NCBI GenBank assembly: GCA_014905825.1 | Contig: JACGCN010000008.1 | Span: 248,001 to 312,000, forward strand | DNA length: 64,000 nt | Direction of reading: 5' to 3' | Source of the DNA: Lyophyllum atratum | Lineage: Eukaryota; Basidiomycota; Agaricomycetes; Agaricales; Lyophyllaceae | Shown here: piece by piece, positions 4,823-22,840 of the stretch | Layout: each line of letters opens with the position of its first letter | Numbering within the stretch: the stretch's first letter is position 1 | Made by a program: the position numbers and the translations under genes | Notes under the pieces: generated by a model | Database searches by the model: none | Told to the model about the DNA's origin: nothing | The model's input: the letters and a program-made list of their open reading frames with translations, nothing else

Positions 4823-4830
4823 CCCGTTAC
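4823..4830. repeat. Right target-site duplication of the hAT element
   Basis: This exact copy of CCCGTTAC matches the duplication at 3500-3507. Confidence 0.88.
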
Positions 4831-5142
4831 GCATAAAGATACGTGTGCATAAAGATGCAACAGGGAGGGGGTTCGTCAAGCCACATGAAGATGGGGCCGC
4901 ATGAAGATGCAACGAAGGCCAACCGCATAAAGATACGGGCACATGAAGATGTGAGGGGCAGAAAACCGCATAAAGATACGGCCGCATGAAGATGCGTAGA
5001 GTATAAACCGCATAAAGATACGGCCGCATGAAGATGCGTAGAGTATAAACCGCATAAAGATACGGCCGCATGAAGATGCGTAGAGTATAAGCCGCATGAA
5101 GATGCAGGTGTCGCAGGTGGGCCGCATGAAGATACGGGTGTC
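4830..5142. repeat. 42-bp minisatellite built on CGCATRAAGATRCG
   Basis: The core CGCATGAAGATGCG or CGCATAAAGATACG recurs about fourteen times. Three clean 42-bp periods start at 4981, 5023 and 5065, and more degenerate units lie either side. Because 42 is a multiple of three, the gag-side reading frame stays open through the array on the minus strand, giving a repeating IFMR/YLYA peptide. The array sits directly between the hAT right target duplication and the intact part of gag, so it probably expanded after or together with the insertion. Confidence 0.8.
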
Positions 5143-5149
5143 GCATTTG

Positions 5150-6135
5150 CGGTGGTAATTTGACGAAAGAAGGACAGGATATAGAGGGGGAGGTAAAGCC
5201 ATCTGTGAGTATTGTGTAAAGAATAGATGAGATAGGCTACGCACGAGGTATGTTCTCTCTGCGTCCTTCCTCGCCCTATCTTCCTTTGCCACCGCGTCAA
5301 CCGCCGCGCGGATCAGTCTCTCGCTAAGGGTACCTATGTCCCAGGCACCTCCCGGTGTGTCGATGGCTGAGTGCCACAATCGGCGCTGCTCCGATAGGTA
5401 GCGCAAGAGACCCAGCCTGTCGAGAGGGTCCTTCGTGGAGCGCAGCGGGTGCATCTGCAACCTCGTGAATAGGTTGGTCATCATTACCTGTCGCTGGCGC
5501 GTCCAACCGGCAGCGTGGATAGCGTCGAGGAACCGCGGAACCGCGATTTGAACCTCTTCCCACGTCAGATTCCTGTCGTCCACGGCAGAGCGCGCCTCCC
5601 TAGATGCCGCTGCTGAGACCCAAGTTGCACGGCCTTCCTTGTCAAAGGTCTGAACCATGGCGCTCTCGTCCAAGGTCGCGGAGTTCTTTAGCGCGTGATC
5701 GAGGCCGTCGTTGGTGAAATACCAGAGCTCGACATAGTTCCCCTTTTGGAGCCGAGTGGTCGCGTACGCCGATAAGATCTCGGGCGGTGTGCTGGGCGGA
5801 GGAACCTCGGGGATCTCGATGTACTTCGCCCTGTGCTTCTTGCGCTCCTCGGCGCGCGAGGTTTCATCCTCGTGACTCCTCACCTCCTCTTGGCGTGCCT
5901 GCGTCGCCTGCATTTGGCGTTCCGCCTCCGCGGCCGCCGCCTCTTCTGCCTCCACCTGACGAGCCCACATCGTCCTTTCGACCGCGTTGCTAGCGTTCCA
6001 GGCCTGAGTCAGCATCACAGTCGCCACCACGTCGTCGATCCCGTCTCGGATGAGAGCTTCTCTTGCACCACGGTAATCTTCTGATGCGAAGTCGGGGCAT
6101 ACCGCCTCGTTGGGGTCGTTCCTGATGACGGGCAT
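5150..6135 (-). CDS. gag-like protein, N-terminal part, of DIRS-like element
   Basis: The frame starts with ATG at 6135 (MPVIRNDPNEAV) and has a Glu/Ala/Arg-rich coiled-coil stretch (residues ~60-105), then a globular part with the ELWYFTNDGLD motif and a Trp-rich region (WEEVQIAVPRFLDAIHAAGW). I recall this architecture as common in agaricomycete elements, where it sits upstream of RT and recombinase frames. A candidate intron (GTGCGT..CACAG) lies at about 5197-5244. Beyond it the frame runs on into the 42-bp minisatellite, and the true gag tail is now displaced to 2982-3499. The start is supported by the clean ATG and the lack of upstream coding signal. Confidence 0.65.
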
Positions 6136-6140
6136 GGCCA

Positions 6141-6679
6141 GAAAAACTTTGTAAAGCAGGTAGATAGATGTAGATATGCAAAAAGTAATCGTAGTGTACG
6201 ATTTCGCGTGAATGAGTGAGCTTTCCTGAGGTGGCGGGCAGCAAAGCGGGTGCCCGCCACCGACGCTTACTCAGCACGTAGACCCTCTTTTCGGATCACC
6301 CTCGTTCCTCGGGTTCTCCCGTATACCTGCTGGACCAATACCGTTACAAACAAACACAGCCCGCTGCTTGCTCCTCGTACAGCCGGCGGATTAGAATAGT
6401 GCAGCAGGTTGTGTTGATGCAGTGCAACAGTTCAATTCAACTGTCCTCGAAACCTCTTGATAGTTGATTTTCACTAACTTCTGAACGTCTCATTTGAGAC
6501 GTCTTAAGTGACTAAATAAAAATCATCGAGCAAGAATTGAACCCTCACAGTCAGCGCAGCAGAGTACCACGGGGTTATGTGAGAGCGTCAATCCATTAGA
6601 CTATAGCATCCTTGAGAACAACCCAAGTGTCACTTTTAAATCCACTATTTCCCTGTATTAAGGAGATGGCGGATGTCCA
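6141..6679. other. Non-coding stretch between the two elements, with one tRNA-like sequence
   Basis: No coding frame is convincing here. Around 6521-6612 (minus) there is a tRNA-like sequence with an A-box-like TAGTCTAATGG, a B-box-like GGTTCAATTC and a following T-run. Its acceptor and T stems pair poorly, so it is either a decayed intron-containing tRNA or a tRNA-derived fragment. The rest probably contains the unread right end of the DIRS-like element. Confidence 0.45.
6521..6612 (-). tRNA. Degenerate tRNA-like sequence
   Basis: Minus-strand internal promoter boxes are visible (TAGTCTAATGG; GGTTCAATTC), and CTCAC/GTGAG could form an anticodon stem around an intron. The acceptor stem is poor. 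A tRNA pseudogene or a SINE head are both possible. Confidence 0.3.
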
Positions 6680-6714
6680 TTTTTGACCATCCCGACATTT
6701 GGTGAAGATAGTCA

Positions 6715-7015
6715 TTCTGCGCCATCTCTTAGTAATTCAAGACAGTTGTTTCGAGCCATCTCAGAGGGACGCAAGATAGTAATTCTGCACCATCCTCTCT
6801 CGACCTAAGGTAGTAATTCTGAGCCATCCTCTCGTAACTAAAATAGTAATTCCGAGCTATCCATTTGTGACCCGAGACAGTGATTCTGAGCCATCTCAGA
6901 CTTGCTGAAGCCAGTTATTCTGAACTGTCCTGTTGTCATTCTAGATGGTTATCCTGAGACACTTCAGAGTGATTTAAGAGTCTTTTACTGAGCCGTCATA
7001 AGAGTGATTATGAGC
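6715..7015 (-). repeat. Left subterminal array of ~34-bp repeats (degenerate)
   Basis: About eight or nine units of 33-34 bp are marked by AGTAATTCTGAGCCATCCTC and variants. Read on the minus strand the unit becomes GAGGATGGCTCAGAATTACT, which aligns with the GGAGGATGGTGAAATTCAAC unit of the right-hand array. Both arrays share the 34-bp period. Confidence 0.75.
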
Positions 7016-7037
7016 GTCCAAAAACAAGTCATTGATT

Positions 7038-8979
7038 TTAGGCATTCCATGCAACAGTTACGTCCTCTAATCCTTTTCCCTCATCCAACTGATTGTACTT
7101 CTCCACCAAAAACTCCACCGTCTTCCTGATCAATTTCTTGGAGAATTTTGCCCCATCTGCCCTGACACTGCCCCGATAAAAATCCTTCAAATTGAGCCCA
7201 AACTTGTCGCGCAAAGCTTGAATAATGAAAAGACGGTCCCGGGGAGTCAAAATCTCCTCCTTGCTGAAACCCTCGGTGACCATGGTGCGTCCAATAATCT
7301 CAGACACCGTCCAAGTCTTCCAAATAATGAAGCCCAACAGAGCATCATCTTCACGGCATCCACAGCTGAGGCACTTTTCTTCAGTATCGTGTTTATCCTG
7401 TTCCTTACCCTTATCCCTTTTTTTTTGATTGGCCGAGCGCTGTGATATCACCCCTTCAATTGAATTCCGGCCATCAGGCATTCCGTTCCACCGTTTTGTA
7501 ACCTTGTCCTTGTGAGTATGGTAAATGCAAAAGATGTTCTGACGGTTGGTTGTCAGGACCTCAAGTGCAAGGTCACATGAAGTGGTGGCGGCCTCCGGGA
7601 GAAAATCACGTTCAGTCCGAATTTTGTTCTTGAACTGGTCATTTAGAGCTTGGCCCGGAAGCCAATTTTCCAATTCCTGAAGGCCTTTTTCTGGACAAGT
7701 ATTTAGAAATATGTTCTCGTTTACCCGCAATACTCACCTCTTTCAGATTTCCGATTAAGGTCCTCTAGTGTTTCACGTATAGAAGTGTCTAGGCCTGATA
7801 TCAGAAGACAATATCTCAGATCAAAATACACATATGACTTACCTGTGCCTTTTTCTGCAGCTTTCTCTTTTTCAGAGCCCATGCCATCGACAAAGGATGT
7901 GCTGATTTCTAGCAGCTGATATCAGCTCCTAACGTCTAAAATGATAGTTGTTTTCCTTACTTGCACCTTTTCTGTGAGTTTTCTCCTTTTTGGAAGTGCC
8001 CACATCATCTCGTGAATCAATTGGATGTTCTGACAAGCTTTCGCTAGCCTTCCGTTTCAAATTTGGCGTATTACCGTCAGAATCTAAGCAGAGTTTTAAA
8101 GATCAGATCGGAAACAAATTATAGCAATGAGCAATTACCTTTGTTGACCAAGTTTTCTTCCCCGGTATTCTCATGTGGCGCAGTTATAGGCTTGGAGGGT
8201 TGAAGCTCAAGGTCACTAAGACGGACTGTGGTGATTACTACGCATGATTAGCTCCGTCAGTAGATCGTAGTAAAGGTAGCGCACGCTGTGATTTGTCCTC
8301 CTCAGTGATCAATCTCATCTCGTCTTTTTCACCTTCTACCTCCGCAGTAGCAAGGTCAACATTCATCATATCCATTGCGTCACTTGAAGGAGCAGGAGAC
8401 AAAGGGCTGGATGGCTCTGAATCATGGCCTTGATCAATGTTCCCATCTATCGTCACTGGCACATTATCGGTGTGGCGCTGCCTGTTTGCGAATATCTCTG
8501 CCATCGCAGACTCCTGTTGTGCCAAAGCACGCTGGGCCCAAGCTTTTTTGGCTTTCTGCTGCTCCTCACCCATAGCATTTCTTGCCTCCCTGTAGTCTTC
8601 GGCCATTGAAATCCTCTCAAGATTCCTTTGAACAGCATCAATATCTTTCTGGATACCATGCTTTACCATTTCGGCTGCCTTTGCTTCTGCTCGGGCAACC
8701 TCTTCATCTACTGCTCAGACACTGAGATAGTTGGTTGGTATAGGAAGTAAAATTGTGACGGACCTTTCTTCCCATTTCCCCGCTTTGCTTTACGGTTTTC
8801 AAGGATTGTATTAGCTTTTTTCAAAGCAGCTTGACGGCGATTCTCCTGATGACTCAGTTCTTCTTGTAGTTTTTCAATTTCTAAAATCACTGATTGTAAT
8901 ATATCTGTTATAGAGAAACAAGTGACCTACTCAAACGCAGAGAAACTGCAGTATTTTCTTGTTGAAGTGACGAAGACAT
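7038..8979 (-). CDS. Coiled-coil cargo protein of the KDZ element, function unknown
   Basis: Splicing gives a protein starting MSSSLQQENTAV (ATG at 8979). It has a long Glu/Lys/Ala-rich coiled coil (IEKLQEELSHQENRRQ... and KDIDAVQRNLERIS...), an acidic Ser/Pro-rich middle, a Lys-rich segment (KRKASESLSEHP), and a C-terminal globular part with a small Cys motif (EKCLSCGCREDD) ending VTVAWNA. Introns are short with good signals, for example GTAGGT..CAATCAG near 8885-8925 and GTGAGT..GTCCAG near 7690-7735; the exons between 7740 and 8240 are less certain. It lies just downstream of the TET/JBP gene on the same strand, 62 bases away. I do not recognise the family. A nuclear partner of the transposase or dioxygenase is only a guess. 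Confidence 0.6.
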
Positions 8980-9002
8980 TGAGAAATTGTATCAGTGTCT
9001 GA

Positions 9003-9030
9003 AGGGAGATGGTACAATTCAACTATGGCC
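9003..9030 (+). repeat. Solitary copy of the terminal 34-bp repeat between two cargo genes
   Basis: The stretch GAGATGGTACAATTCAACTA lies between the end of the TET/JBP gene (9041) and the start codon of the coiled-coil gene (8979). It closely resembles the GAGGATGGTGAAATTCAACTA unit that fills the right terminal array. Confidence 0.55.
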
Positions 9031-9040
9031 CATCTAAAAA

Positions 9041-10449
9041 TTACTCCAATCCATCATCAACATCAGCCTTCTCATTTCGCTTCAATCCTATGTCCTGGGC
9101 AAATGAGCGAACTGCCGGTGAGATGAATCTGTCATTCCGATTGGAATATCCTGGCGCCGAAATGCCAAGTCTCGTGATCACAGCATGCCGCATGAAGTGT
9201 GCATAGCAGACTCGATTTCCTCTTCCCCATTCCTCGACCTCATGCAATAAGAGATTTCCGCATAGCAGAATTGCAGTGCCAGGACCATAGGTGAATTCTG
9301 CTCCCAGCTCTGGGACCTTGAGCTTTGCTGTCTGGTAATTCCCACAAGCGATCAATAAATCATACCATGTGTACGATCCGTTTCGGTCACGATGCTCCCT
9401 GGTGATCCGATTAGAGATCACAGCTATCCCCGTGAAAGCGGACTCCCATTTCCCCGCGTACGGCGCTGTATCCTTCCGTTCCCGGATTCTAGCCAAAGCC
9501 TTCATGCCAGCATCATGAAGTTCAGGGTGTGCCACAGCAAGGATGCTGTTGCAAAACTTTGAAGTCTCAGCAATCGCTTCCATCCACTCTACGACGCCTC
9601 GATCAATGTTGTTGCGAATGGACAATGAAGTCACCAGGTGTGCGCGTGGGTTATTCTATGATAGAAATTGTTCATCTGATCCGAACTGAGGTTAATCAAC
9701 TTACTCCATGTCCTTGAGCAAACCATCCAGGGGAAAAGTCTCTCGATCCGCATGGAAGAGAATTAGGACCAGTGTGAGGAACAAAGTCGTTTGGGTTATT
9801 TCGGGATCCACGTTTTGATTTGGAGCATTTTGGAACATCCTCCAAGATATCTTTCAAATGGCTTGTTGCCATGTACAGCTCATTCTATTTATAGTCAATA
9901 ATTGCACATGTTTCTGAGTTGTGGACTCACATGCTGACGTGGAGAGAGGATGCCTGGTAGGTACCATATCAGTATATTTCCTGCCATGTCCACTACAGTG
10001 CATGGCTCCGAAATGGTCCCCAACGTTGGATTTTTCGCCAAAATATCACTGATGCGACCTGGTGACTTCAGGCCACTAACATCACAACCAATGTAGACTA
10101 TTCAAAATGTTGGGAAACAAGATAGCTCAAGCATCAAAGTAATCGTACCAGGGTTGAGAAACGCAGCAGTTGTAATCTTGATTAAATCTGTTTTTTCTTG
10201 TTCAAGCATTGGGCGAGCACGTCGTGTAGATCCGGACGGTGCCTTAAAAATGGGCCTAGACTTCAAATCAGAGTTGCAAGGCTATTAGAGTTCAGATGTG
10301 ACATACATGCCCGACACCGCTATCAAATTCAGCCTCTTTTGAAAGGCCATTTGAACCACTTCAGACAGTGGCTTTACTTCTGGCACTGGCTTTCTGGGCC
10401 GTTTTTCGCGTCCGCGGACTCTGCGCCTCCCTGAAGAGGTTTTCACCAT
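9041..10449 (-). CDS. TET/JBP-family 2-oxoglutarate/Fe(II) dioxygenase
   Basis: Five exons give a protein of about 400 aa, starting MVKTSSGRRR (ATG at 10449) and ending DVDDGLE. TET/JBP enzymes oxidise 5-methylcytosine or thymine in DNA and act in the nucleus. The double-stranded beta-helix lies in the last exon: the HxD iron-binding motif is in REHRDRNGSYTWYD (His near residue 287), the distal His is in NLLLHEVEEWGRG (near 337), and the 2-oxoglutarate-binding Arg follows in NRVCYAHF. The N-terminus is basic. Splice sites are good (GTATGT..CTAG; GTACGA..ATAG; GTGAGT..ATAG; GTAAGT..ATAG). All key residues are present and no frameshift is visible. Residence in a KDZ element matches the known fungal association. 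The substrate cannot be read from the sequence. Confidence 0.87.
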
Positions 10450-10879
10450 CTTCACACAAGATGTGCCTGTTCACGTTGCTTGTGACGCGACGGAAGAGCA
10501 GCGGCGTGGTTCAACTTTTTTTTGTTCACGTGGTAGTGGCGTGGGAATTCCTCGAGCCAGACTCTTGGACATGTGCAAAACTACGCAGTAGACTCAGACT
10601 CGCGGAGGAGAACAAAGCATAGACATAATGTATTGAGCTAAGTAAAATACATCAATAAATTTAGTCGGTACACACTGTTGTATGGCGTCCTCGTCCTTGA
10701 GGAATAGCGGAGCACGTTCAGCACGCCATGGAACTGGGGTTGTCAGTAGTTATAATAAAATAATAACACCATCAAGAGTTGAACGCTGGACCTTGCGCAA
10801 GTGATGACTAATCCACAAGTCGTTGGGCAACTCAAACCGCTAGGCCATGGGGCTGTTATCATTCTGCTTTACTGAAGAC
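10450..10879. other. TET/JBP upstream region with one tRNA-like sequence
   Basis: This is the promoter side of the dioxygenase gene. It is AT-rich and holds no convincing coding frame. A minus-strand tRNA-like sequence lies at 10770-10855. Confidence 0.5.
10770..10855 (-). tRNA. Degenerate tRNA-like sequence
   Basis: On the minus strand there is GCCCCATGGCCTAGCGG (A-box-like TGGCCTAGCGG) and GCGTTCAACTC (B-box-like). A possible anticodon arm GACT..TTGTGG..AGTC is imperfect, and the acceptor arm does not pair well. It is probably a tRNA pseudogene or the head of a SINE. Confidence 0.35.
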
Positions 10880-11815
10880 TACTGATTATGTTCGACAACG
10901 GACCCGTGCATGATGGTTATTGTGTTCGTTGTTGTTTGTTCCTCAACCTCCACCACCACCACCGTCGCCCCCCCCCCCGCTGTGTGCCCTCGGCGCTGCC
11001 GGCCAGTGCGCACCCCACGACGCCCAGGACGCCTCCCACGCCCCCTCAGGACCCCCGTGACCGTCGGAGACAACGAGAAGGGAAGGAAAGGCAGAGGAGG
11101 TAACCCAGGGCAGACCCCAGTTGGGGGAGAGCCGCGAGGTGCGCCCTCGCACCCCTCCCCGCTGCCACCACTGACCCCCCGGCATACAGCACGACCACAG
11201 GGGGCAACGACAACGGCCCCTGCGAGTCCGACCCGTCCACCCCGGCGCCACGTCACACGCCAAACGACGCGACTACCACCGCCACGTCGCGGCACGACGC
11301 CCTCGCCCGCCCGCTCCCTGCTGCCACCACTGACCCCCCGGCATACAGCACGACCACCGACGGACCGCACGCCCCTGCGAGCCCGCCCGCTCCCCGGCGC
11401 CACGTCACACGCCAAACGACGCGACTACCACCGCCACGTCGCGGCACGACGCCCTCGCCCGCCCGCTCCCCGCTGCCACCACTGACCCCCCGGCATACAG
11501 CACGACCACCGACGGACCGCACGCCCCTGCGAGCCCGCCCGCTCCCCGGCGCCACGTCACACGCCAAACGACGCGACTACCACCGCCACGTCGCGGCACG
11601 ACACCCTCGCCCGCCCGCTCCCCGCTCCGCCCCCACGTCGCCTTAGCCACGCGACACCGCATGCCCGCAACCACCACCGCCGCCATGTCACCCACCCACA
11701 TGCGAGGTGGGGTCGCCCGTGCCTCCAGCCGCGCATTCGTGCGCGGCCTTTCATTATTACTTTTAACTAGTCAATATCAATGTATTAGATAGTTTTGAAC
11801 AATACATTTCGTTTA
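10880..11815. mobile_element. GC-rich segment related to the hAT MITE interior
   Basis: This is a sharply GC-rich island in an AT-rich element. It contains CAGACCCCAGTTGGGGGAGA and the following GCCGCGAGGTGCG (11111-11143), which is the inverse of the stretch at 4319-4355 in the hAT MITE. The AT-rich tail near 11760-11810 (CTAATACATTG.., TAATGAAAGG on the minus strand) resembles 3770-3830. I could not find the TAGGCTTTC termini or a target duplication, so this is a truncated or divergent relative. The ORFs read here are low-complexity. Confidence 0.5.
11161..11640. repeat. Three tandem ~152-bp GC-rich repeats
   Basis: The marker CGTCACACGCCAAACGACGC occurs at 11251, 11403 and 11555, a period of 152 bp. 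The marker CTGCCACCACTGACCCCCCG occurs at 11162, 11321 and 11473. The third unit is truncated on its right. Confidence 0.8.
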
Positions 11816-12248
11816 TAATTCATGTTGCATGTTCATTTGGAGTCCTAACCTGACGTTAACCTCGATCAACCGGCAACTGCTACGAATTCTACTGTTCACA
11901 TCTCCTCGCGTGGGACGGGGCCCGAGCTTGTGTCTAAGAATAGATGGGCTTGGCATCTTTCGACATGGCAACGCGCACGTTGGCTGTGTTTGCCTCGGAA
12001 CTTTCCGGCCTGTATAAAGGATGAGCATGTTCAACTTCGATCCTTGATGCCCTTTTCCCTCCTCCCATCCATTGCGATGTTGCGGAAGATTCCGCCCTTG
12101 ACATTCTTGTCCTTCCTCGCCAGATGGACATAGAGTGTTTTTGGGTGAGAACCGAGGTGGCTCCTCGAGTTCTTTGAGTTGAATGCATGTTGCGTGGCCT
12201 TGGTATTGGGATTTCGGGTATCCTTTGGGTTGTGGGCTCCCTTGCATA

Positions 12249-12412
12249 TCAGTGCGCCTGGCTTCAGAGAGAGTCAGGGCCTGCCCCGATCTGAGAGTCG
12301 GGGATGAGTGCGTTTTTTTTGTAGTTGTTGGACTGATTACCTGCACGTAAGGGCGCCTGGCTTCAGAGAGAGCCAGGGCCTGCCCCGATCAGAGAGTTGG
12401 GGATAGGTGCAT
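12249..12412. repeat. Pair of direct repeats, ~57 bp, ~102 bp apart
   Basis: GCGCCTGGCTTCAGAGAGAG and the following CAGGGCCTGCCCCGATC occur twice, starting near 12251 and 12353. No coding function is seen in 11816-12480. Confidence 0.7.
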
Positions 12413-12489
12413 GGTTCTTGGTTTGGCTTCGACATTGCTGCTTGGCAGGAAACTCTGAGCTAGCGTCAGCCTCACCAATCAGGTTTTAT

Positions 12490-12880
12490 CTTCATGCCGG
12501 TTATCATGGTGAGTGTAGCTATGCACGCCATGTACGTACTCACCAATTTCATAGGTCATATTCTTTCATTCTCGTTATTATCATGCCGGTTATCATGGTG
12601 AGTCTAGCTATGCACGCCATGTACGTACTCACCAATTTCATAGGTCATATTCATGTTTTTCATTCTCGTTATCATGGTGAGTATGGCCTTGCATGCCATA
12701 TACCTACTCACGTCTTTCATAGGTTATATTCATTTTCTCTATTACAGTGAGTGTAGTCTTCCGAGCGATGCATGTACTTAGCAATTTTATAGGTCACATT
12801 TAGGTTTTTTTTGTGGTGGTGAGTATCTCCTTCTACCCCATGCACTTGCTGATGGCTTATTAGGTTATTTCGAATTTTCC
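12490..12880. repeat. Imperfect ~70-90-bp tandem repeats with recurring GTGAGT
   Basis: About five units are seen. Each carries ATCATGGTGAGTRTRGC followed by ATGCACGCCATGTACGTACT, CACC AATTTCATAGGTCATATT and a T-rich tail, decaying from left to right. The units stop before 12900. From 12880 to 13400 I see no gene, only AT-rich sequence. Confidence 0.65.
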
Positions 12881-13419
12881 CTATAACATAGTACGTTTTC
12901 TTTTATTATATGGGCGGAAGCTGATTTATTTTCTACGTTTCACAGGAATAGAGTGCTGGTAGTCAGGTATGTCTTTCTCCGTTTTCCTTTCTGTTACTTA
13001 TCAATTGCTTTATCTAGTCCCTCGATGATCCACTGCACCATTTCTTTGATTTTCTTTCGTTACGTAGACTTCTTTCGGACAGTACTTGTTTGCTGGTGGG
13101 GGCCCACATCAGCTTGCATTTGCTGCGCCACCTTTTTCTTCATACAATACCTAGCAGTTTCAGTTAGTTTATTTGTTAAGTCATACAAGTTTGTTGTTAA
13201 CTTAGTTTAGAGCCCAGTGTCTTGGATTAAAGATAATTTTTCGCTTTTTGAAGTGGCTAACCCTAACCCTAAGACGTTCAAATCAGGAAATTTACTGGGA
13301 GATAGCTTGATTAGGCAGTTATTTTCATTACACATGATTGGTACCTATAACAGGAAATTTTCGATAACAATCGCGTCAAGGCGATAGCCATCACACCAAT
13401 CGATGGGGCAAAAGTTTCT

Positions 13420-13428
13420 TATAAAAAG
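13420..13428 (+). promoter_or_regulatory. TATA box of the H3-mimic/PHD gene
   Basis: TATAAAAAG lies about 55 bases before the ATG at 13476, a normal spacing for a fungal TATA promoter with a short leader. Confidence 0.5.
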
Positions 13429-13475
13429 ACCATCTACCTTACAGTAATCTACCCCATCTTCCACATCCTCTTCAC

Positions 13476-15071
13476 ATGGCCAGAACCAAGAACACTGCTA
13501 GAAAAGTTATGGGCGGACCTGCCGAAAAATGTGATCTGGATGCCGACACTGCCACGGAGGTTGAGAATACCCTTCCTTCTCCTATTGCTGTTCCAGCTAG
13601 CAAGAGTGATGATACTGCCAACAACGTAAGTCTGTCTATTTTTTATAACAAACTGAAAAGCTCAAACATATTCAAGTTTTGCACCATCTGTCTCAATGGT
13701 GGAGATCTATTCATTTGTTCCTGCAGACGCACGGTATGCGCCCAGAACTGCCTACCTGGAGTAGACTTCTATGCGAACCTTGGCGATTTCACGTGTCCTG
13801 CGTGCTTTAAGAATAAAAACTCTGAAGAACCCTACAAGGTTATCTAGTCAATTTTCTCGATATTTTATGCTGACGTTCTGAATAGCCATTTTCGCAGTTG
13901 GATCAGCTGTTCGCTGTCCCTCTTACGCTAAACACTCGATCTCTGTTTCCATATATGGCCTCAGATTCTATGGTCATTCTGTCTCTTCGCCTGGAGGGCT
14001 CTTCTGCCATCTCTAGTGCTTCCAGTATTATTTACGCCCATCTATTCGATTATTTCGATCAGAAGGGGCCCATGCCTGATCTCGAGCTCATTGAGATTGT
14101 CTTTAATCTCAGTACCAAAAGCTCAAGGTCCAAGTATACGACAGATCTCGCGGCTATTCTTCCTCAACTGGCACGGTAAGTACAATTTAGCCTTAGTCAG
14201 ACTCAATTTTTCAAAATTGGTTGGACAGATTCAAACGTTTTCTAGTCTTTGTCGTTGGTCACTCGACTCCTGATACCGGAGACATCTGGATCAAGCCAGG
14301 ACCTAACCCTGCAGCTGCGAGTCCGGAGCAGGTAAATGTTATGCCTTGTTATATGCTACATATTTCTGATAGATCTATAGTTCTTCAACTGCATGTTCTC
14401 GCCAGCACTTTTAGCCCATATCAAACGTGATCCGGCAGCTAGTCTTTTCCTGATGCTTTGCGGTGGTCCGTTTCTGCATAAAGAAAGCTTCAAAGAGATT
14501 TTCGATTTTGTCACGCCGTGAGATTCAAGTCTACCTTTTGCATACATTATTCCAATCTAATTTACTGCCTAGTAATTTCTGGCTTACATGGGGCTTTACA
14601 AAAGCCGAATTCCATCCATCTATTGCTCATACCTTCTTGATGAAGGTCGCGGTTAGAATCTATATCAACCGTCAACCAGCTGTCCTGGATGATCTACTTC
14701 AAGGGGAGACAGACCTTGGTGCACATGCTGAAGGGGTTATCTGCTTTGTTGGAGCCAACATCAATCTCGTCGTCCATTACACCTGGCACCATGATTTCTT
14801 GCGGCCAAATGGGCAGAAGATCCCAGTCAGTTGTGAGAAGTGCTTCCGCATCAAGCATTGGGAAAAGGTCTCGACTTCAAAAAACGAACTTGTACTGCAA
14901 TGCAAATCTTGCAAATCGCAATCGACAATTCACTGCCCCCCACTGGAAGGCGCATTCAGTGTGTCCAAACATGCTAAGGGAGGTCATTCAACTGGGGCTT
15001 GGCAGGTGCAATACTTGAACAGCGATTCCGAGGTTGTGTCCAAAGGAGTCGCCATTCGTTATCCCTTGTAA
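13476..15071 (+). CDS. Histone H3-tail mimic with PHD-like zinc finger, KDZ cargo
   Basis: The protein starts MARTKNTARKVMGG. Without the Met this matches the H3 tail ARTKQTARKSTGG at 10 of 13 positions, keeping Arg2, Lys4, Arg8 and Lys9 but replacing Ser10 by Val. About residues 50-100 hold a PHD-like cysteine pattern (CTICLNGGDLFIC, CSCRRTVCAQNC, FTCPAC). Later exons form an uncharacterised globular region, and the last exon has a zinc-ribbon-like CEKC..CKSC. Introns with good signals lie near 13626 (GTAAGT), 14176 (GTAAGT), 14332 (GTAAAT) and 14517 (GTGAGA..CCTAG); the one near 13840-13894 starts with a weaker GTTATC. The gene converges on the next minus-strand gene. A chromatin role is inferred from the motifs only. 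Confidence 0.7.
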
Positions 15072-15290
15072 TTTGGACTATTATATCTTTACCATGAGCA
15101 CTACATCATCGGTCATTCAACTGATCTGCTTCAGAATACCACGTCACTCATGTTGTTACTTCTTGTAGAATTTTCGTCCCTATAATGTATCATGACATTC
15201 AACTGTTCACTATAGTCCATCATGACATTTAACTGTTGAGATACAAGTTCATAACATCAACTGTTGAGATACAAGTTTCTGGTCCTCAAA

Positions 15291-16696
15291 TCAATCTGTT
15301 TCATCTCCTGCCCCTTCCAGCTGTTTGATCTTTGCCTGTAAATCAGCAATGACAGACGCATGTGCAATTATTTCGGCATCTTTGTCTGCCATAACCTTTT
15401 GTGTCTCCTCCTGTAAGCTTTCCTTCTCTGCAATTGCGATTTGGAGCTCTTTAGCAATTTCTAAAGCTTCATTCCGTTTTGCTGCAAGAAGCCCAGATGT
15501 AAGAACTTGGAATTGATTAAGAATCTTTGCAGTATCTGCTTTGGCATCTCGTCTGAGCCGAGGGGAAGTATAGTGTGTGGCTGTAGATGCGCCTGTAGGC
15601 TGCTGCACTGCCAACACCATCCACAAATCACACTCTTCTGAAAGCCTTTCGCACTAGCAAGTGCAAGATATTCAGTTGTCAGTTTTGTTGAGAAAAATTC
15701 ATTAACACTGACACGCGAAACAAGCCCTTGAATCTCACGATTAAATCGTGCACTGACTTCAGATACTTTTGTCAGCTTGGGACGTAATGGCTTTGCACGA
15801 GGAATCACTGTCCCAAATTTTAGCAAGCTCTAAGGTCAGATATACGTCTCAAATGCTAGCTCACAATATTCCTGATTTCCACGTTTTACGCCAGCAACAA
15901 ATCCATGAGCGGCAGACTTTTGAGAGATTCTCAGACGCTTTGAAGAACCTGATGCTAGTAATGCCTCTTTATCCTGGCAAGCAGCAGGTGTTGAAAGTAC
16001 AGATTGGGAGCCAGCATCTGGTTCGGACGGTCCAGGTGTAAAAGTGGATTGTGACATTGGCTCGGAGCCGATATCTGATTCAGATGGTCCAAGTGTAAAA
16101 CGATAAAGAGATGTTGAAGACGCAAATTGACTTTGAGCGATTAACTGAGGATCAATTACAGGCTATGTTATAAATTTCTTCAGTATTGACCAGACTTGAT
16201 ATCACTCAGATCAGCTCGTACCTGAGGCTGAGATGGCGTCGGTGTTGTTAGATTTGGCAGGATTCCCGACCCTCCTAAAGGGGTCGAGAGAGTATACTGG
16301 ACCTGCTGAGACACTGTATTATTCTGTAGAGATGGAAGAGCAAAAGGATCTAGGTCTGCATTCTAGTAAAAATATAGTCAGTAATTTTTTCTTTTCATTT
16401 CTATGTTCTGCTCACCGGCTGTGCAGATTCACTTCCTATCTGGGGTTCTTGAGAACTGTTATTATTTGCATAGGATCCTTCTTGCTCCTGTATATCATTG
16501 TTAGGCGCATCTTTAAAAGTAGTAAAAAACGTACTCTTGACTTTAAAAAAGTCCTTCCTTTGACTGTATGAATGCATTCATCCCGCAATGGTCGATCTGG
16601 GCACTTATTGCATCTCGGAGGCTGGCGTGACACTGTGGGCCTCTTGAGAGGTGTGTGCTTCGCAGTTGGTTTACTTTGCCTGCGATCAGATGCCAT
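15291..16696 (-). CDS. Coiled-coil cargo protein with N-terminal Cys motif, function unknown
   Basis: The model starts MASDRRQSKPT (ATG at 16696). A basic N-terminus carries a short CNKCPDRPLRDEC motif, then comes a Gln/Asn/Ser/Pro-rich region with two copies of a LGPSESDIGSEP-like repeat (GPSESDIGSEP; GPSEPDAGSQS), a basic patch (KRLRISQK), and a C-terminal coiled coil of about 80 residues ending KQLEGAGDETD. Introns: GTACGT..ATACAG, GTGAGC..ACTAG, GTACGA..CATAG, GTGAGC..GACAG and one near 15600-15640. It is divergent from the KDZ transposase (185 bases between starts), suggesting a shared promoter. I know no matching family. A DNA- or chromatin-bound accessory protein is a possible role, not shown. 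Confidence 0.6.
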
Positions 16697-16880
16697 GAAA
16701 GTGTTGAGAATAATAAATCTCTTTTTATATCAATTACATTGTATTTGCTGCAAACAAAAGACGGTACATGAGAGATATACTGGTGAGGCTATAAATAAAT
16801 TTTTGGGCTTGGCGTAGCACAGGTTGACTATGATCCGACCAAGCATCAACTCAAACCGACACCCTTTATCCCTTTTCTCG
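16697..16880. promoter_or_regulatory. Shared divergent promoter of coiled-coil gene and KDZ transposase
   Basis: This 184-bp AT-rich gap separates two opposite start codons. A TATAAATAAA motif near 16790 suits the transposase, with the start chosen at 16881. The alternative in-frame ATG at 16830 would leave a very short leader. Confidence 0.5.
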
Positions 16881-19800
16881 ATGGATATCACACTGGATAA
16901 TCCTGCAACTTCTTCTAGCCTTGAAATCACACTTGATACTCCACCCAGCTCACCTCCTTTGCTATCACTTGATGACCCCACTGGACACTGTGATTCACAA
17001 AAGCGCTTACTGGAAGATATGGAACTTTTGATACCAAACCATGCGTCTCCTCAAAAAAGACAGCGTACTCGATTTCATGTTCAAAACAATCAGCTCAAGC
17101 GAGCACGCGTCAGGAAGCCAAGGCATGGAAACAGTGATCAAGAGGATTCTGTTCTGTCTACTACTGCTCAAAGTCCCATCGGATTTTGGACTGATGATAT
17201 GCATATGGCCTCCAACCCACAAGAATTTGACTCTGGATTACAAAATGATGTCCCTTCCTCTAATACTGGTTATTTGGCCTTTGTCGAAGCAGTATTTTGC
17301 AATGTTGCTGGTTTTTTCTGCCTTAAAAGAGATATATTCGTTGTGCAAGGGTGGAATGGCAGTCAAGGCAGAGCTACGGTGCGTAAATTCCAAAGGATGT
17401 TTTGACTGTTCTAACTTTGAATCAGAAAGAGTGGTATCACTTGCAGCTTGATAGGTCTTCACCGAAACTGGAACCTGTATGCTTATGCCCTATTGCTAAG
17501 CTGCTTGGAGAATGTGTCCACCAGGACTTCTTCAATGAGTTCGAAGTAGAAAACCCAGCAAGTTATGAAGGACAAAAGGATGGTACGGGAACTACATTGT
17601 TTCATTTGGAATACACTTCTGATTTCGAACATAGATGTCATCCTTTTTTGCAGAGATCTCAGGGAGACAGACTCAGTCAATCTTTTCTCTGTGGCGTCGG
17701 CCAAAAATCCTCATTTAGTCAAGTCAAGAAAGATTGTTGCCTATACAGGAGATGATAGAGGTACTGGATGCTGGACGTGTACAGCAGACAGCGGAAACTC
17801 TTGCGGTCATATATATCGAGCAAAGAATACTTTCCAGCAATTGTTGAAGGCAGATCCAAGTGCCAAGGATGACAGCGCAAGCAAAAATACACCTGCAGGT
17901 GCGAATTACATTCTAGATTGTACAACAAGTGCATTGATCACTTATAACTAGTTGCTGCTCATCGGGCCAATGTCCAGCAAATCCAGCCCGTCTCATATCT
18001 TCCAATTGCTATACCCACTTGGGCTGCCATTGATAGTGATGTGGAGTTATATCCCCAACCACTGCCCATTACAAAAAGCCCTGAAATCATCCCTCTCAGC
18101 CCATCCTCCCGATGTGCATGTGGTATTCTCTTTGATCCAGCTAAACCAACTGTGACAAAGAACTGTCTGCTCTATTCTCTCACCGAGCCTCTTGTATGCT
18201 CAATTCAACTACAAAAGTGCCAAAAATGCAATACCCGAGGCAATCGCTACATTGGTCCGGATTCTCGCCAGCTGGGAATTTTCAACTACAACAACCGACT
18301 TCTCTTTGCACATGACCTGTTGGACGAGTATACTATGGAGTACACCTCATCGGAGACTCCTTTTGTGGCATGGGTCCATGTCGTGTCACGGAGATATGCC
18401 AAGTACGCACAAGGGGCCACTTTTGTGGATGAAGGAACCTTCCGAAAAGTTTGGTTCGACTATGCACGGCTAGTCAATTTTAGCAATGACATGGCTTGTC
18501 CCAAATGTGGACCATGTCCTTCCGACGTTATCTGGGATGGGATCACATTGGGGTTCAATCAGAAACATCTTCTTCCCACCTTGTACCCACCAACCACACT
18601 CCACCCCAATTCGATTGAGCGCCGCTGCTCATATCCTAAAAAGCAAACATTGGTGTTAAACAAGGACTGCAGAAAGCTTCTGCAAAGTATCACTACTGGG
18701 CCATCATTGGTCCATGATGACAGCACAGGAAATGTTGAGGAGAGTGAAGACTCCGATGCAAGTGGTGCTGAAGAAGCCTCCTTGGAGTCAGCCAAGCAGC
18801 TCAAGAATATTCTTCAGCGAGTTCAAAAAATTCCGGAACTGGAGCAGCTATTAACAGCTGAGAACACATCATTGGCATCCTTGTTCACAAGATATAGTGG
18901 TTCGGCAGTCATCCTGGCCAAAATTGACTGCCCTAGACCTTACCGCAAGTTTTTTCAGCAGGTAAATTTCTGGTTGTATATCAATAAAGCTCTAATTGTG
19001 TCTTTCAGATTTCAACAAGTGACTCCATCCTGCAAATAGTCAATCGTCCTGCCCTTCGATTACTTCAGGAATTTATTGCAAACCCAAGGAGAGAAGTAAT
19101 GGAAAACCTCCTGGGCATTCCATGTCTCTACCACGTTATTCAGTTTGAATATGCGAAGGGCAGCTTATTACCTAAAGAGTTATTAGGTGTTCTACAATGG
19201 ATTGCCCAACGCACAATGGAGGTGCTAGATCGTCTACTGAATTATCCGGTGCCACCAGAAGACCCTTCTGCCAATGGGGCAGATAATGGCTGGGAAAAAG
19301 TGCGCCACAGCATTTCTTAGGTTTTATAAATGACGCTGACAGCAACTCTAGAGTGGATGCTATTATAGTATGCCTCAAATAAGGCATCGCCCAAAATATC
19401 CAAATCTCAAGCATGAAAATCGAGCTGAACCACTAAACCGTGGTGGAAAGTGCCAAAAGTATTATGGGGAATATGGCCAAAACAGGCTTACTGGAGGCAT
19501 CATGTGTGCTTGGTGTACCCATAGCATCTGCTATGGCTACCACTGCATTCCACAGAGTGAAGGGCGGAATGATGTATTCTCTGCTATGGTTACGCGCTGG
19601 CCAAATCCCCCAAAGAGAGTCATCTATGACTTTGCTTGTCAACTTGGCCCATACTGCAGAACAAGGGAACCAGAATTCTTTGCCGATACACAGTTCCTAA
19701 TTGACGACTTTCATGCCACTGGTCATACCCGATGTTCGGAAGCAGCCTTTCTTCGAACATATGCAGAGACCCAACCTCTCCTTGGAAGGATCAATCCAAG

Positions 19801-19948
19801 TGCTGCTGAATGTGGAAATGGTGGATTAGGAAGGATACGGAAATCAGTCAGCTATATGGGACAGGAGAGAGCAATAATATTTACCAAGGTTTTTCTCTCA
19901 GTTTGGAATCGGTCTAAAATACAAAGGATGTATCGTCATCAAAAGTAG
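16881..19948 (+). CDS. KDZ-type (Kyakuja-Dileera-Zisupton) DNA transposase
   Basis: Seven or so exons give about 900 aa starting MDITLDNPATSS. Cysteine clusters typical of fungal KDZ proteins follow in order: CLCPIAKLLGECVHQDFF, a SWIM-like GCWTCTADSGNSCGH, RCACGILFD, KCQKCNTRGNRYIG and CPKCGPCPSDVIWDGITLGF. The C-terminal catalytic half has YGEYGQNRLTGGIMCAWCTH, VIYDFACQLGPYC, DDFHATGHTRC and NPSAAECGNGGLGRIRKSVS. The conserved Asp/Glu residues lie in these blocks. Clean introns include GTGCGT..ATCAG at 17380, GTTATG..TTGCAG at ~17564, GTGCGA..ACTAG at 17901 and GTAAAT..TTCAG at 18961; the junction near 19305-19370 is uncertain. The reading frame appears intact. The enzyme would cut and move the surrounding element. 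Confidence 0.85.
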
Positions 19949-20010
19949 AAATATACATGTTGGAGTGGCTGGGACAGTAAAATTGAATTGGCCTCTGCAT
20001 GCCTGCATAC

Positions 20011-21790
20011 GGAGGATGGTGAAATTCAACTATCTAGTGCAACTATCTCCCAGATACAGTGGATGGTGAAATTCAACTATCCTCTACAGACGGAGGATGG
20101 TGAAATTCAACTATCCCCTACACACGGAGGATGGTGAAATTCAACTATCCCCTACGTACGGAGGATGGTGAAATTCAACTATCTAGTGCAACTATCTCCT
20201 ACGTACGGAGGATGGTGAAATTCAACTATCCCCTACGTACGGAGGATGGTGAAATTCAACTATCCCCTACACACGGAGGATGGTGAAATTCAACTATCCC
20301 CTACGTACGGAGGATGGTGAAATTCAACTAAATTCAACTATCTCCTACGTACGGAGGATGGTGAAATTCAACTATCCCCTACACACGGAGGATGGTGAAA
20401 TTCAACTATCCTCTACGTACGGAGGATGGTGAAATTCAACTATCCCCTACACATGGAGGATGGTGAAATTCAACTATCCTCTACGTACGGAGGATGGTGA
20501 AATTCAACTATCCCCTACACACGGAGGATGGTGAAATTCAACTATCTAGTGCAACTATCTCCTACGTACGGAGGATGGTGAAATTCAACTATCCCCTACA
20601 CACGGAGGATGGTGAAATTCAACTATCCTCTACGTACGGAGGATGGTGAAATTCAACTATCCCCTACGTACGGAGGATGGTGAAATTCAACTATCTAGTG
20701 CAACTATCTCCCAGATACAGTGGATGGTGAAATTCAACTATCCCCTACGTACGGAGGATGGTGAAATTCAACTATCCCCTACAGACGGAGGATGGTGAAA
20801 TTCAACTATCCCCTACGTACGGAGGATGGTGAAATTCAACTATCCCCTACACACGGAGGATGGTGAAATTCAACTATCCCCTACGTACGGAGGATGGTGA
20901 AATTCAACTAAATTCAACTATCCCCTATGTACGGAGGATGGTGAAATTCAACTATCTCCTACGTACGGAGGATGGTGAAATTCAACTATCCCCTACACAC
21001 GGAGGATGGTGAAATTCAACTATCCCCTACACACGGAGGATGGTGAAATTCAACTATCCCCTACACACGGAGGATGGTGAAATTCAACTATCCTCTACGT
21101 ACGGAGGATGGTGAAATTCAACTATCCCCTACGTACGGAGGATGGTGAAATTCAACTATCTAGTGCAACTATCTCCCAGATACAGTGGATGGTGAAATTC
21201 AACTATCCCCTACGTACGGAGGATGGTGAAATTCAACTATCCCCTACAGACGGAGGATGGTGAAATTCAACTATCCCCTACGTACGGAGGATGGTGAAAT
21301 TCAACTATCCCCTACAGACGGAGGATGGTGAAATTCAACTATCCCCTATGTACGGAGGATGGTGAAATTCAACTATCCCCTACACACGGAGGATGGTGAA
21401 ATTCAACTATCCCCTACGTACGGAGGATGGTGAAATTCAACTAAATTCAACTATCCCCTACGTACGGAGGATGGTGAAATTCAACTATCTCCTACGTACG
21501 GAGGATGGTGAAATTCAACTATCCCCTACACACGGAGGATGGTGAAATTCAACTATCCCCTACACACGGAGGATGGTGAAATTCAACTATCCCCTACACA
21601 CGGAGGATGGTGAAATTCAACTATCTAGTGCAACTATCTCCTACGTATGGAGGATGGTGAAATTCAACTATCTAGTGCAACTATCTCCTACGTGCGGAGG
21701 ATGGTGAAATTCAACCATCTCCTACAGATGGAGGATGGTGAAATTCAACCATCTCCTCCATACAGAGGATAGTTGAGTCAAACTATCTCC
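20011..21790 (+). repeat. Right terminal array of 34-bp repeats, ~50 copies, with higher-order structure
   Basis: The core GGAGGATGGTGAAATTCAAC is followed by TATCCCCTA and a variable hexamer (ACGTAC, ACACAC or ACAGAC), giving a 34-bp period. A variant block with CTAGTGCAACTATCTCCCAG occurs near 20033, 20694 and 21157, and an AACTAAATTCAACTA junction near 20325, 20900 and 21435, so blocks of roughly 460-660 bp have themselves been duplicated. Units become degenerate after 21640. No coding frame is meant here. Confidence 0.95.
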
Positions 21791-22840
21791 CACCACTATT
21801 GACAGCATTTAATTTCAATATGAAGGACAGTTAAATTGAACTATCCAATCAGAGCAGATTAGACGTCATAGCCAAACTGGAGATGGGTAAATTGAACTAT
21901 TATTAGGGTGTGAAGACGGTGAAAACAAATCGTCCTTTGTTGGCATTTGTGGCAGAGTGTATGGTTATGATGCAGCAGGCCGTATCATGTTTATGCAGCC
22001 CGCTGTATGTGTCTCTAACATTATTCAACTTTTCCCTACACCGGTTCTCCGAAAACATCAGTTGTGGTGCGGTTTCGAGTGCGGTTCACTCAGCCACTGC
22101 GACTTTTGCAGGATTGCAAATTGACTGGACAAAGAAATAAAAGCGATGGACAGTCAGTTGGAATATCGAGCGCAGCGCGAGACATAAACGCGGCACTTGG
22201 TGGCGCTACTAAGTTCTGCATTTTCGTGGCTCACCACTCGATCTCCCTGTTTCATTCATCCCATTTCGTATATCTTCGTTCTATTACCACTTGCTTACCA
22301 TTTCACACCTTCCTTATTCGATTTCTATTTTAGTTATACAATGTACCTAATCAATAGTCGATAATGCAGCACCTCGCGCGATTGCGAGGGTCAACGTGAG
22401 CGCTGCGGGCCCGCTCATTCTAACGTGGATGGCAGCCCATCAGGATTGATCGGATACGCGCAACGCTCAAATCTGCTCAAATCCACGCGCGTAAGTTCAG
22501 CTCGACGAAGTGTTAATCGCACAGGCGCATTTCCCGATTCTGTAGCTATGCCTTATGGCCTCAACCAATGGATTACTCCTTGCCTTGAGACTGCCAGATT
22601 GGACCCTTGAAACTCACATCTCACTCGTCTTTAAGATATAAAAAATCGGTCTTGTAGAAATTACCTCTTCATCGAAAGGAGCATTGCTACAGGAGGAGTG
22701 AAAAAGACTGATCAATATTGACCCGCACGGTACGGCTCAGTGAACTGCATCATTGGTCACTGTGAATGCTCAGTGAACTGCATCATTGGTCACTGTGAAT
22801 AATTGTCGGGTCATCAACGTTCAACATCGATAATCTCGTC
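21791..22840. other. Right end of KDZ element and flank; no gene seen
   Basis: Degenerate relatives of the 34-bp unit (AGTTAAATTGAACTATCC; GGGTAAATTGAACTATT) continue to about 21905 and mark the probable element end. The remainder has no supported coding frame. A perfect tandem duplication of ~33 bp (CTCAGTGAACTGCATCATTG...) lies at 22735-22800. Confidence 0.6.

Follow-up and report, generated by a model that had tools for sequence, protein, structure and literature searches.

En/Spm and Ac are transposons with repeated secondary transposase sites, and the KDZ transposons reportedly take their name from Iyer et al. in 2014. In Agaricomycetes, TET-carrying KDZ transposons include Kyakuja and Zisupton, and the parts of the account used here record a proposal that transposon TET enzymes remove silencing marks, with CcTet belonging to Coprinopsis cinerea (Kojima, 2025, PMC12730594); VANDAL21, a MuDR-type plant element, is cited there as well (PMC12730594). 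The subject of this report is a KDZ-type cut-and-paste DNA transposon carrying TET/JBP, found in Lyophyllum atratum at positions 6320-22042 (15,723 bp) of a 64,000-bp stretch, the window, which is C130:248001-312000 of a 64.76-Mb, 151-contig assembly (C130 being contig JACGCN010000008.1). Coordinates are window positions unless a contig is named, and genome-wide searches cover that assembly. The large subterminal array of this element is probably a multimerised binding site, a 22-bp palindrome, for an element-encoded protein.

The element has three further copies in the genome, on contigs C46, C63 and C108. All four share a left edge at window 6320/6321 and a right edge at 22042, and the flanks differ outside both. 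The features that define the ends are as follows.

6312-6319, unstranded: left copy of the target-site duplication, GGTTCTCC, identical to the 8 bp at 22043-22050
22043-22050, unstranded: right copy of the target-site duplication, GGTTCTCC, matching the left copy
6320-6366, plus strand: left imperfect terminal inverted repeat, 47 bp, 27/47 against the reverse complement of 21996-22042
21996-22042, minus strand: right imperfect terminal inverted repeat, the element ending in ...CCCTACACC

The inverted-repeat match of 27/47 between the first 47 bp of both ends was reached by none of 20,000 random pairs. Clean 8-bp target duplications flank three of the four copies, namely GGTTCTCC in the window, ACGTACAC in C46 and CGAAGCAT in C63. 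At the C108 copy, GTTTTCTG stands at the left edge and recurs at the right edge after six extra bases, so this junction is ambiguous and not a clean example.

The insertion lies in another repeat (4823-6319), 10 bp before the end of that repeat's common sequence. Besides the window, at least 12 long and at least 3 short (143-bp) matches to this host repeat reach the insertion point, these being lower bounds with 40 of 123 candidates scored. At all four host-repeat places read (3 long, 1 short) the target is undivided: ...CTCGGGTTCTCC is followed directly by GAAAACATCA, with GGTTCTCC present once and running straight into GAAAACATCA without an insert, and the sequences diverge afterwards. The arrays were rejected as termini, because the copies and the undivided target place the ends outside them. 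A candidate empty-site allele at C77:445751 was also rejected, as its match to the right flank begins only at 22062 and the left flank has no match within 4,143 bases. This region (C77:445751-446893) is 85-90% identical to C130:270062-271200, starting 20 bp to the right of the element, and may represent either the second haplotype or a segmental duplication.

An initial annotation of this stretch had proposed one KDZ transposon bounded by the arrays at 6680-21900. The segment is indeed one KDZ element, with a 34-bp array close to either end; the further copies with identical ends that it suggested looking for are present, as is the target duplication that an empty site was to define. The arrays lie near both ends and not at them: the true ends fall 360 bp and 142 bp outside the proposed interval, and the boundaries of the copies lie outside that interval rather than inside it.

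Within these boundaries, the arrays and the palindromes at the tips occupy the following positions.

20001-21790, unstranded: right array, about 49 units, period 34 bp with 44/47-bp variants; each unit a 22-bp near-palindrome plus a 12-bp spacer
about 6707-7011, unstranded: left degenerate array, 9 units in a 34-bp register, about 27 bp past the stop codon of the minus-strand open reading frame (ORF) 7038-7733
6425-6446, unstranded: left tip palindrome CAACAGTTCAATTCAACTGTCC, 20/22 to the pattern GGAYRGTTSAATTSAACYRTCC
21825-21846, unstranded: right tip palindrome GGACAGTTAAATTGAACTATCC, 21/22

The units of the right array are variants of a 22-bp dyad-symmetric sequence with the pattern GGAYRGTTSAATTSAACYRTCC, which was drawn by eye from sites in the array, the tips and a related family. 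The right array holds 53 palindrome matches at 15/22 or better, 34 of them at 20/22. The 48,261 bp outside the element hold 14, all at 15/22, and the 12.9-kb interior holds seven, one at 18/22 (position 9007) and six at 15. At the tips, the real palindrome gives 9 matches, whereas 200 shuffled palindromes average 0.41 and never exceed 4; this control is partly circular because the motif came from these same sites. Across the genome, the spaced core has 78 exact matches versus 4 for the reversed pattern, and 77 of the 78 fall in five elements of this lineage, the four copies and a relative on contig C89. The left-tip palindrome recurs at 20/22 in C63 and C108 and at 18/22 in the C89 family; furthermore, a diverged right-end-like remnant (L053, C130:454.7 kb) carries a 22/22 palindrome.

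For the right array, TRF reports period 34 at 20040-21625, with overlapping arrays to 21770. An exact-motif count gives 48 units, whose 47 spacings are 34 bp (37), 47 bp (7) or 44 bp (3), and under looser criteria the count is 51, including two tip sites that lie beyond the array. The roughly 50 units of 34 bp in the initial annotation agree with these counts (48 exact, about 49-50 in all), and its degenerate left array is equally real: nine units in register, with a lag-34 autocorrelation of 0.51 versus 0.30 in one control stretch. Its claim that both arrays are the same repeat stands in part. The cyclic profiles match at 15.5, a value equalled or bettered in 20 of 5000 column permutations, and as judged from these profiles the similarity is real and modest. 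As DNA, the two sides align best at 6429-6488 (61 bp, 69%, E 2.7e-4), at the left tip and outside the left array; the left array itself aligns weakly with the right, the best matches having E 0.038 and occurring in both orientations. The opposite orientation once assigned to the arrays is not supported, as profile alignment scores 15.5 direct against 13.7 inverted, and array orientation cannot be read because the unit nearly equals its own reverse complement. When scored with a strict weight matrix of the right array, the left region peaks at 0.96 bits on its minus strand, where the highest of 200 shuffles is -12, and at -20 on its plus strand, where shuffles reach -4. A foldback hairpin was rejected, the left and right arrays being too unlike for pairing along their length.

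Array size differs among the copies. Counted with the tip sites, there are 51, 35, 17 and 28 units in the window, C46, C63 and C108 copies, respectively. Over the stretches compared, the C46 copy matches the window at 100% (rounded) and yet differs in unit count, so array size changes faster than sequence. In the C108 copy the left array is absent, window 6553-7027 being deleted. That copy (C108:1091951-1104900) also lacks about 1.9 kb of the transposase region, and the C63 copy has about 3.7 kb of extra DNA at the start of that region (C63:145970-149632).

A similar-core 34-bp array is found in the related family on C89, which resembles the window element at the left tip (82% over 74 bp), in internal pieces (72-75%) and in one repeat piece (84%). 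Its left-end array has 32 units, with 23 of 31 spacings at 34 bp and an interruption of about 3.7 kb; the core is GATAG-N9-ACCRTCC and the spacer has changed relative to the window. The C89 profile outscores all 5000 permutations when set against the left array of the window, and 4993 of 5000 when set against the right array. For this element a right end was not found, and its large array is known from the left end. Beside it lie large 59-bp-period arrays in both orientations (L055 7601-10000 and L056 1-513).

Similarly, more distant KDZ loci were compared. The genome has 109 KDZ-family matches, which count exons and not elements, and five loci of about 3.5 kb contain more distant relatives with 63-66% amino-acid identity to the window's KDZ exon. 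In three of these five (L025, L029, L038), 12-13 occurrences of the dyad motif ATATGG/CCATAT follow shortly after the KDZ exon, in excess of the highest of 300 Markov controls (7-10). L029 and L038 apparently form one family, and the three loci probably represent two. L029 has two ATATGG...CCATAT pairs with starts 16 bp apart, which is the 22-bp geometry of the window palindrome and is suggestive only.

The genes of the element are given below.

16818-19948, plus strand: KDZ transposase gene region of predicted ORFs, with the CxC4 domain in 17948-19039 and the KDZ domain in 19352-19948
7038-9655, minus strand: TET/JBP dioxygenase gene region, ORFs 7038-7733, 8238-8714 and 9041-9655, the first two assumed to belong to the same gene
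13476-13841, plus strand: first exon (P0001) of a gene encoding an H3-tail-like N-terminus and a PHD finger, probably continuing in ORFs to about 15071
15291-15653 and 15836-16162, minus strand: ORFs of no assigned function, open in the window and 96-98% identical in DNA in C108

The cysteine cluster of the transposase matches CxC4 (PF18717, E 1.7e-44), and its KDZ domain matches PF18758 at E 4.3e-6, with 27.0 bits against a cut-off of 26.6 (26.1 bits, below that cut-off, in the genome-wide scan). The TET/JBP match (PF12851, E 7.7e-16) lies in ORF 9041-9655, and Pfam gave no match in ORFs 7038-7733 and 8238-8714. The enzyme resembles CcTet (PDB match, E 9e-18), lies inside the element boundaries and has a TET_JBP match in each of the four copies; ORF 7038-7733 is 66-80% identical to its counterpart in family C89. 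Summed over ten ORFs, the window and C108 copies differ with pS 0.051 and pN 0.020 (pN/pS 0.40), two of the ten showing no excess of silent change. A 152-bp tandem array at 11155-11626 forms a GC-rich stretch (66%) in the AT-richer element, and a piece of 73-85 bp next to this array is found again, at 84-85%, in C89 and C72.

The gene of P0001 lies head-to-head with TET/JBP, and its predicted protein starts MARTKNTARK...GG and continues into a cysteine-rich finger. It begins MARTKNTARKVMGGPAEK; histone H3 after its methionine reads ARTKQTARKSTGGKAPR, and CHD4, PHF21A and AIRE are H3 readers. P0001 is identical to H3 1-23 at 12 of 23 positions, where the maximum over 100,000 shuffles is 9. Using phmmer against the PDB, residues 61-110 match a CHD4-based PHD finger (E 0.004) and PHF21A (E 0.078), and residues 2-23 match the histone H3 N-terminus (E 0.087, weak alone). 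Pfam returned no family for P0001, a homologue search of the exon in a large protein set returned one candidate with none scored, and structure prediction of the exon alone was unusable (mean pLDDT 36).

Diverged versions of this protein occur elsewhere in the genome. The C63 copy carries one in place of the segment at about 11.8-15.1 kb (C63:140.9-144.3 kb, L062), with 42, 32 and 37% amino-acid identity in three ORFs. Around the swapped segment (window ~11781-15100) the C63 element is 96-99% identical to the window, a pattern that suggests recombination between families. The C63 version (C63:142582) starts with MARRKNTAKKTTGGPAPK; its single in-frame stop may mark an intron, and Pfam gave this version weak RING/PHD matches below cut-off. 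Genome-wide, the pattern MARxKxTAxK matches 17 times (control, 0): 8 canonical ARTKQTARK, 2 MARTKMTARK, 4 of the window/C63 type and 3 MARSKHTATK starts (C13:611959, L068; C64:3111937, L072; C119:633284). The C13 and C64 copies of the last kind read on MARSKHTATKATGEPAPR, and the C13 copy has a PHD finger shortly downstream in a different frame, which alone matches CHD4 (E 2.4e-6), PHF21A (2e-5) and AIRE (1.6e-4) in phmmer; Pfam found no families in L068 or L072. A PHD finger is thereby seen in the window, C63 and C13 versions. All three versions have ARxK..TA.K..G directly after the start methionine and agree with H3 at 12 of 23 positions. A1, R2, K4, T6, A7, K9, G12, A15 and L20 are common to all three and H3, six of these being fixed by the search pattern in the MARSKHTATK family.

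These H3-like proteins are found beside TET enzymes. A genome scan for TET_JBP gave 18 matches, 14 of them above cut-off, and 6-kb windows on either side of the matches make up 0.33% of the genome. Each of the seven H3-like starts, counting the window, C63 and MARSKHTATK types together, has a divergently oriented TET_JBP match at a distance of 3.2-5.6 kb; none of the eight canonical H3 starts and neither of the two MARTKMTARK starts has one within 6 kb. Because four of the seven starts are copies of one element, the independent families number two or three. At an eighth TET match, the best (C64:191471), a PHD-finger homologue (E 1.2e-4) lies at a distance of 4.9 kb, and the other 10 of 18, all weaker (at most 46 bits), had no such neighbour in these searches. 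The MARTKMTARK starts (C75:681979 and C80:296009) lie 4.6 kb from canonical H3 starts on two mirrored contigs; they are either an H3 variant or another mimic, and the mirrored contigs hint that both haplotypes are in the assembly. With a tail that retains K4 and K9 of H3 and a PHD finger attached to it, the protein may act as a decoy that lures host chromatin factors away, may recruit them, or may bind to itself.

Taken together, these observations favour the view that the array multiplies a binding site for a protein of the element, to which we give a probability of about 60%. It draws on the boundaries and mobility documented by four copies, with clean duplications at three and undivided targets at all four places read, and on a palindrome that sits at both tips and in the right array and is nearly confined to the element lineage. 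It draws also on the similar core in the left-end 34-bp array of C89, the unit counts that vary while C46 stays 100% (rounded) identical in the stretches compared, the other dyad motif downstream of the KDZ exon at three distant loci, and the pN/pS of 0.40 between window and C108. An element-encoded protein would bind the palindrome, probably as a dimer, and the best candidate would be either the KDZ transposase, making contact by way of its CxC4 zinc cluster, or some accessory protein. On this view, core recognition would fall to the solitary sites at the tips, which would mark the ends, and the arrays would act as a high-occupancy platform for loading, raising the local concentration and growing and shrinking by unequal exchange. 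From these features we infer contact between protein and DNA and an effect on transposition; transposase binding at the arrays, which the initial annotation had raised, would be one form of it.

Several points weigh against this view. The left and right arrays are only modestly alike, and the left is much less palindromic, with a dyad score of 4.0 of 10 versus 6.9. Only three of the nine left units reach 15/22, and the hexamers of the left array are not enriched (P 0.26). The long arrays are dispensable at least for persistence, because C108 persists without the left array and C63 with 17 right units. In addition, the 18/22 palindrome at 9007 lies inside the element, two of the five distant KDZ loci (L030, L031) show no dyad enrichment, and both arrays follow gene 3' ends, so that a role at transcript ends keeps a small probability.

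Among the alternatives, the strongest is compatible with transposase binding, and we consider it somewhat unlikely: the arrays would recruit TET/JBP, directly or via the H3-like/PHD protein, and the element would be kept unmethylated, by analogy with VANC and VANDAL21. The element does encode a TET/JBP close to CcTet together with the H3-tail-like/PHD protein, its arrays adjoin gene 3' ends and not promoters, and the tandem repeats targeted by VANC turn over between related elements, as the arrays do here, according to the parts of that study used (PMC5735166). However, palindromes near both tips beside the inverted repeats suit transposase recognition at least as well, and TET is not established at the distant KDZ loci with dyad-rich 3' regions. 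A minisatellite without function, arising by slippage that the tip palindromes seeded, is an unlikely explanation. It would account for the range of 17-51 units across copies, for the higher-order duplications (465-bp steps between repeated matches and multi-unit TRF periods) and for a left array that has decayed and is missing in C108. It fits poorly with a 34-bp period and similar core kept in two families whose spacers diverge, and with a motif confined to these elements; the core columns are also more informative than the spacer columns in five arrays (window right, window left, C46, C63 and C108) but not in C89 (1.50 versus 1.48), a comparison that favours the core since units were chosen by it. 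Finally, that the arrays are 3' untranslated, terminator or insulator DNA of two outward-facing genes is highly improbable: they do lie about 27 bp from the stop of ORF 7038 and about 50 bp past the transposase stop at 19948, and the C89 array again ends about 75 bp from the homologue of ORF 7038-7733, but a palindrome of varying copy number is an odd terminator and single palindromes stand further out, nearer the inverted repeats.

Binding by an element-encoded protein may itself be part of a wider scheme, which we regard as possible on less than even odds. The element would be a targeted anti-silencing transposon in which proteins load on the arrays, TET/JBP erases cytosine methylation and the H3-mimic/PHD protein diverts or recruits chromatin machinery, all as one inherited system with motif and binder co-diversifying among KDZ lineages. 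Judged by its sequence, the element looks equipped for being grasped by its own proteins and for escaping silencing. The 22-bp palindrome, repeated as many as about 50 times, is a concrete candidate site, and some KDZ relatives have another dyad motif. If an H3-tail mimic with a PHD finger is truly kept by TET/JBP in two or three diverged families, it would offer mobile elements a means of engaging histone readers or writers, one for which no description was found in the literature searched.

In comparison with described KDZ elements, this one shares with the TET-carrying elements, in the parts of that article used, a KDZ transposase and a TET/JBP related to CcTet, and its 8-bp target duplication is like those of Zisupton and one Dileera family (PMC12730594). 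Membership in Kyakuja was rejected: those elements have 7-bp duplications, CA..TG ends and no inverted repeats, whereas here there are 8 bp, CG..CC ends and 27/47 imperfect repeats (PMC12730594). That article contains none of the terms 'subterminal', 'minisatellite' and 'repeat array' and has 'tandem' solely in a reference, and the main-text parts consulted do not mention an H3-like or PHD protein (PMC12730594). The Cryptococcus elements KDZ1-KDZ3, as far as the sections used describe them, are alike in target duplications (8 bp; 4-8 bp), KDZ domain and inverted repeats, but have 139-241-bp inverted repeats and CxC1 in place of 47 bp and CxC4; the words 'tandem' and 'subterminal' are absent from that article (PMC12810828).

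In the open-licence PMC literature searched, as far as its sources were accessible, no report was found of KDZ elements with tandem arrays in subterminal position, of H3-tail mimicry by a protein encoded in a transposon, or of the present combination, in which one KDZ element has both a large array of palindromes and, beside TET, a gene of the H3-like/PHD kind. Known already from these partly consulted sources are KDZ and TET-carrying KDZ elements, repeated secondary transposase sites in other superfamilies, and VANDAL21 arrays tied to anti-silencing. As in VANDAL21 with VANC, a short motif forms tandem arrays that show turnover from one related copy to the next, and there is anti-silencing cargo, here putative, although in the parts of that study used the VANDAL21 motif is YAGTATTAY, with repeats in introns and upstream regions, and here it is a 22-bp palindrome (PMC5735166). 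Galileo likewise has variable tandem repeats in its inverted repeats, proposed as secondary transposase-binding sites; in the sections of that work used, group F has repeats of about 210 bp in none to three copies, whereas the present element, of another superfamily, has 17-51 copies of a 34-bp palindromic unit (PMC3573991).

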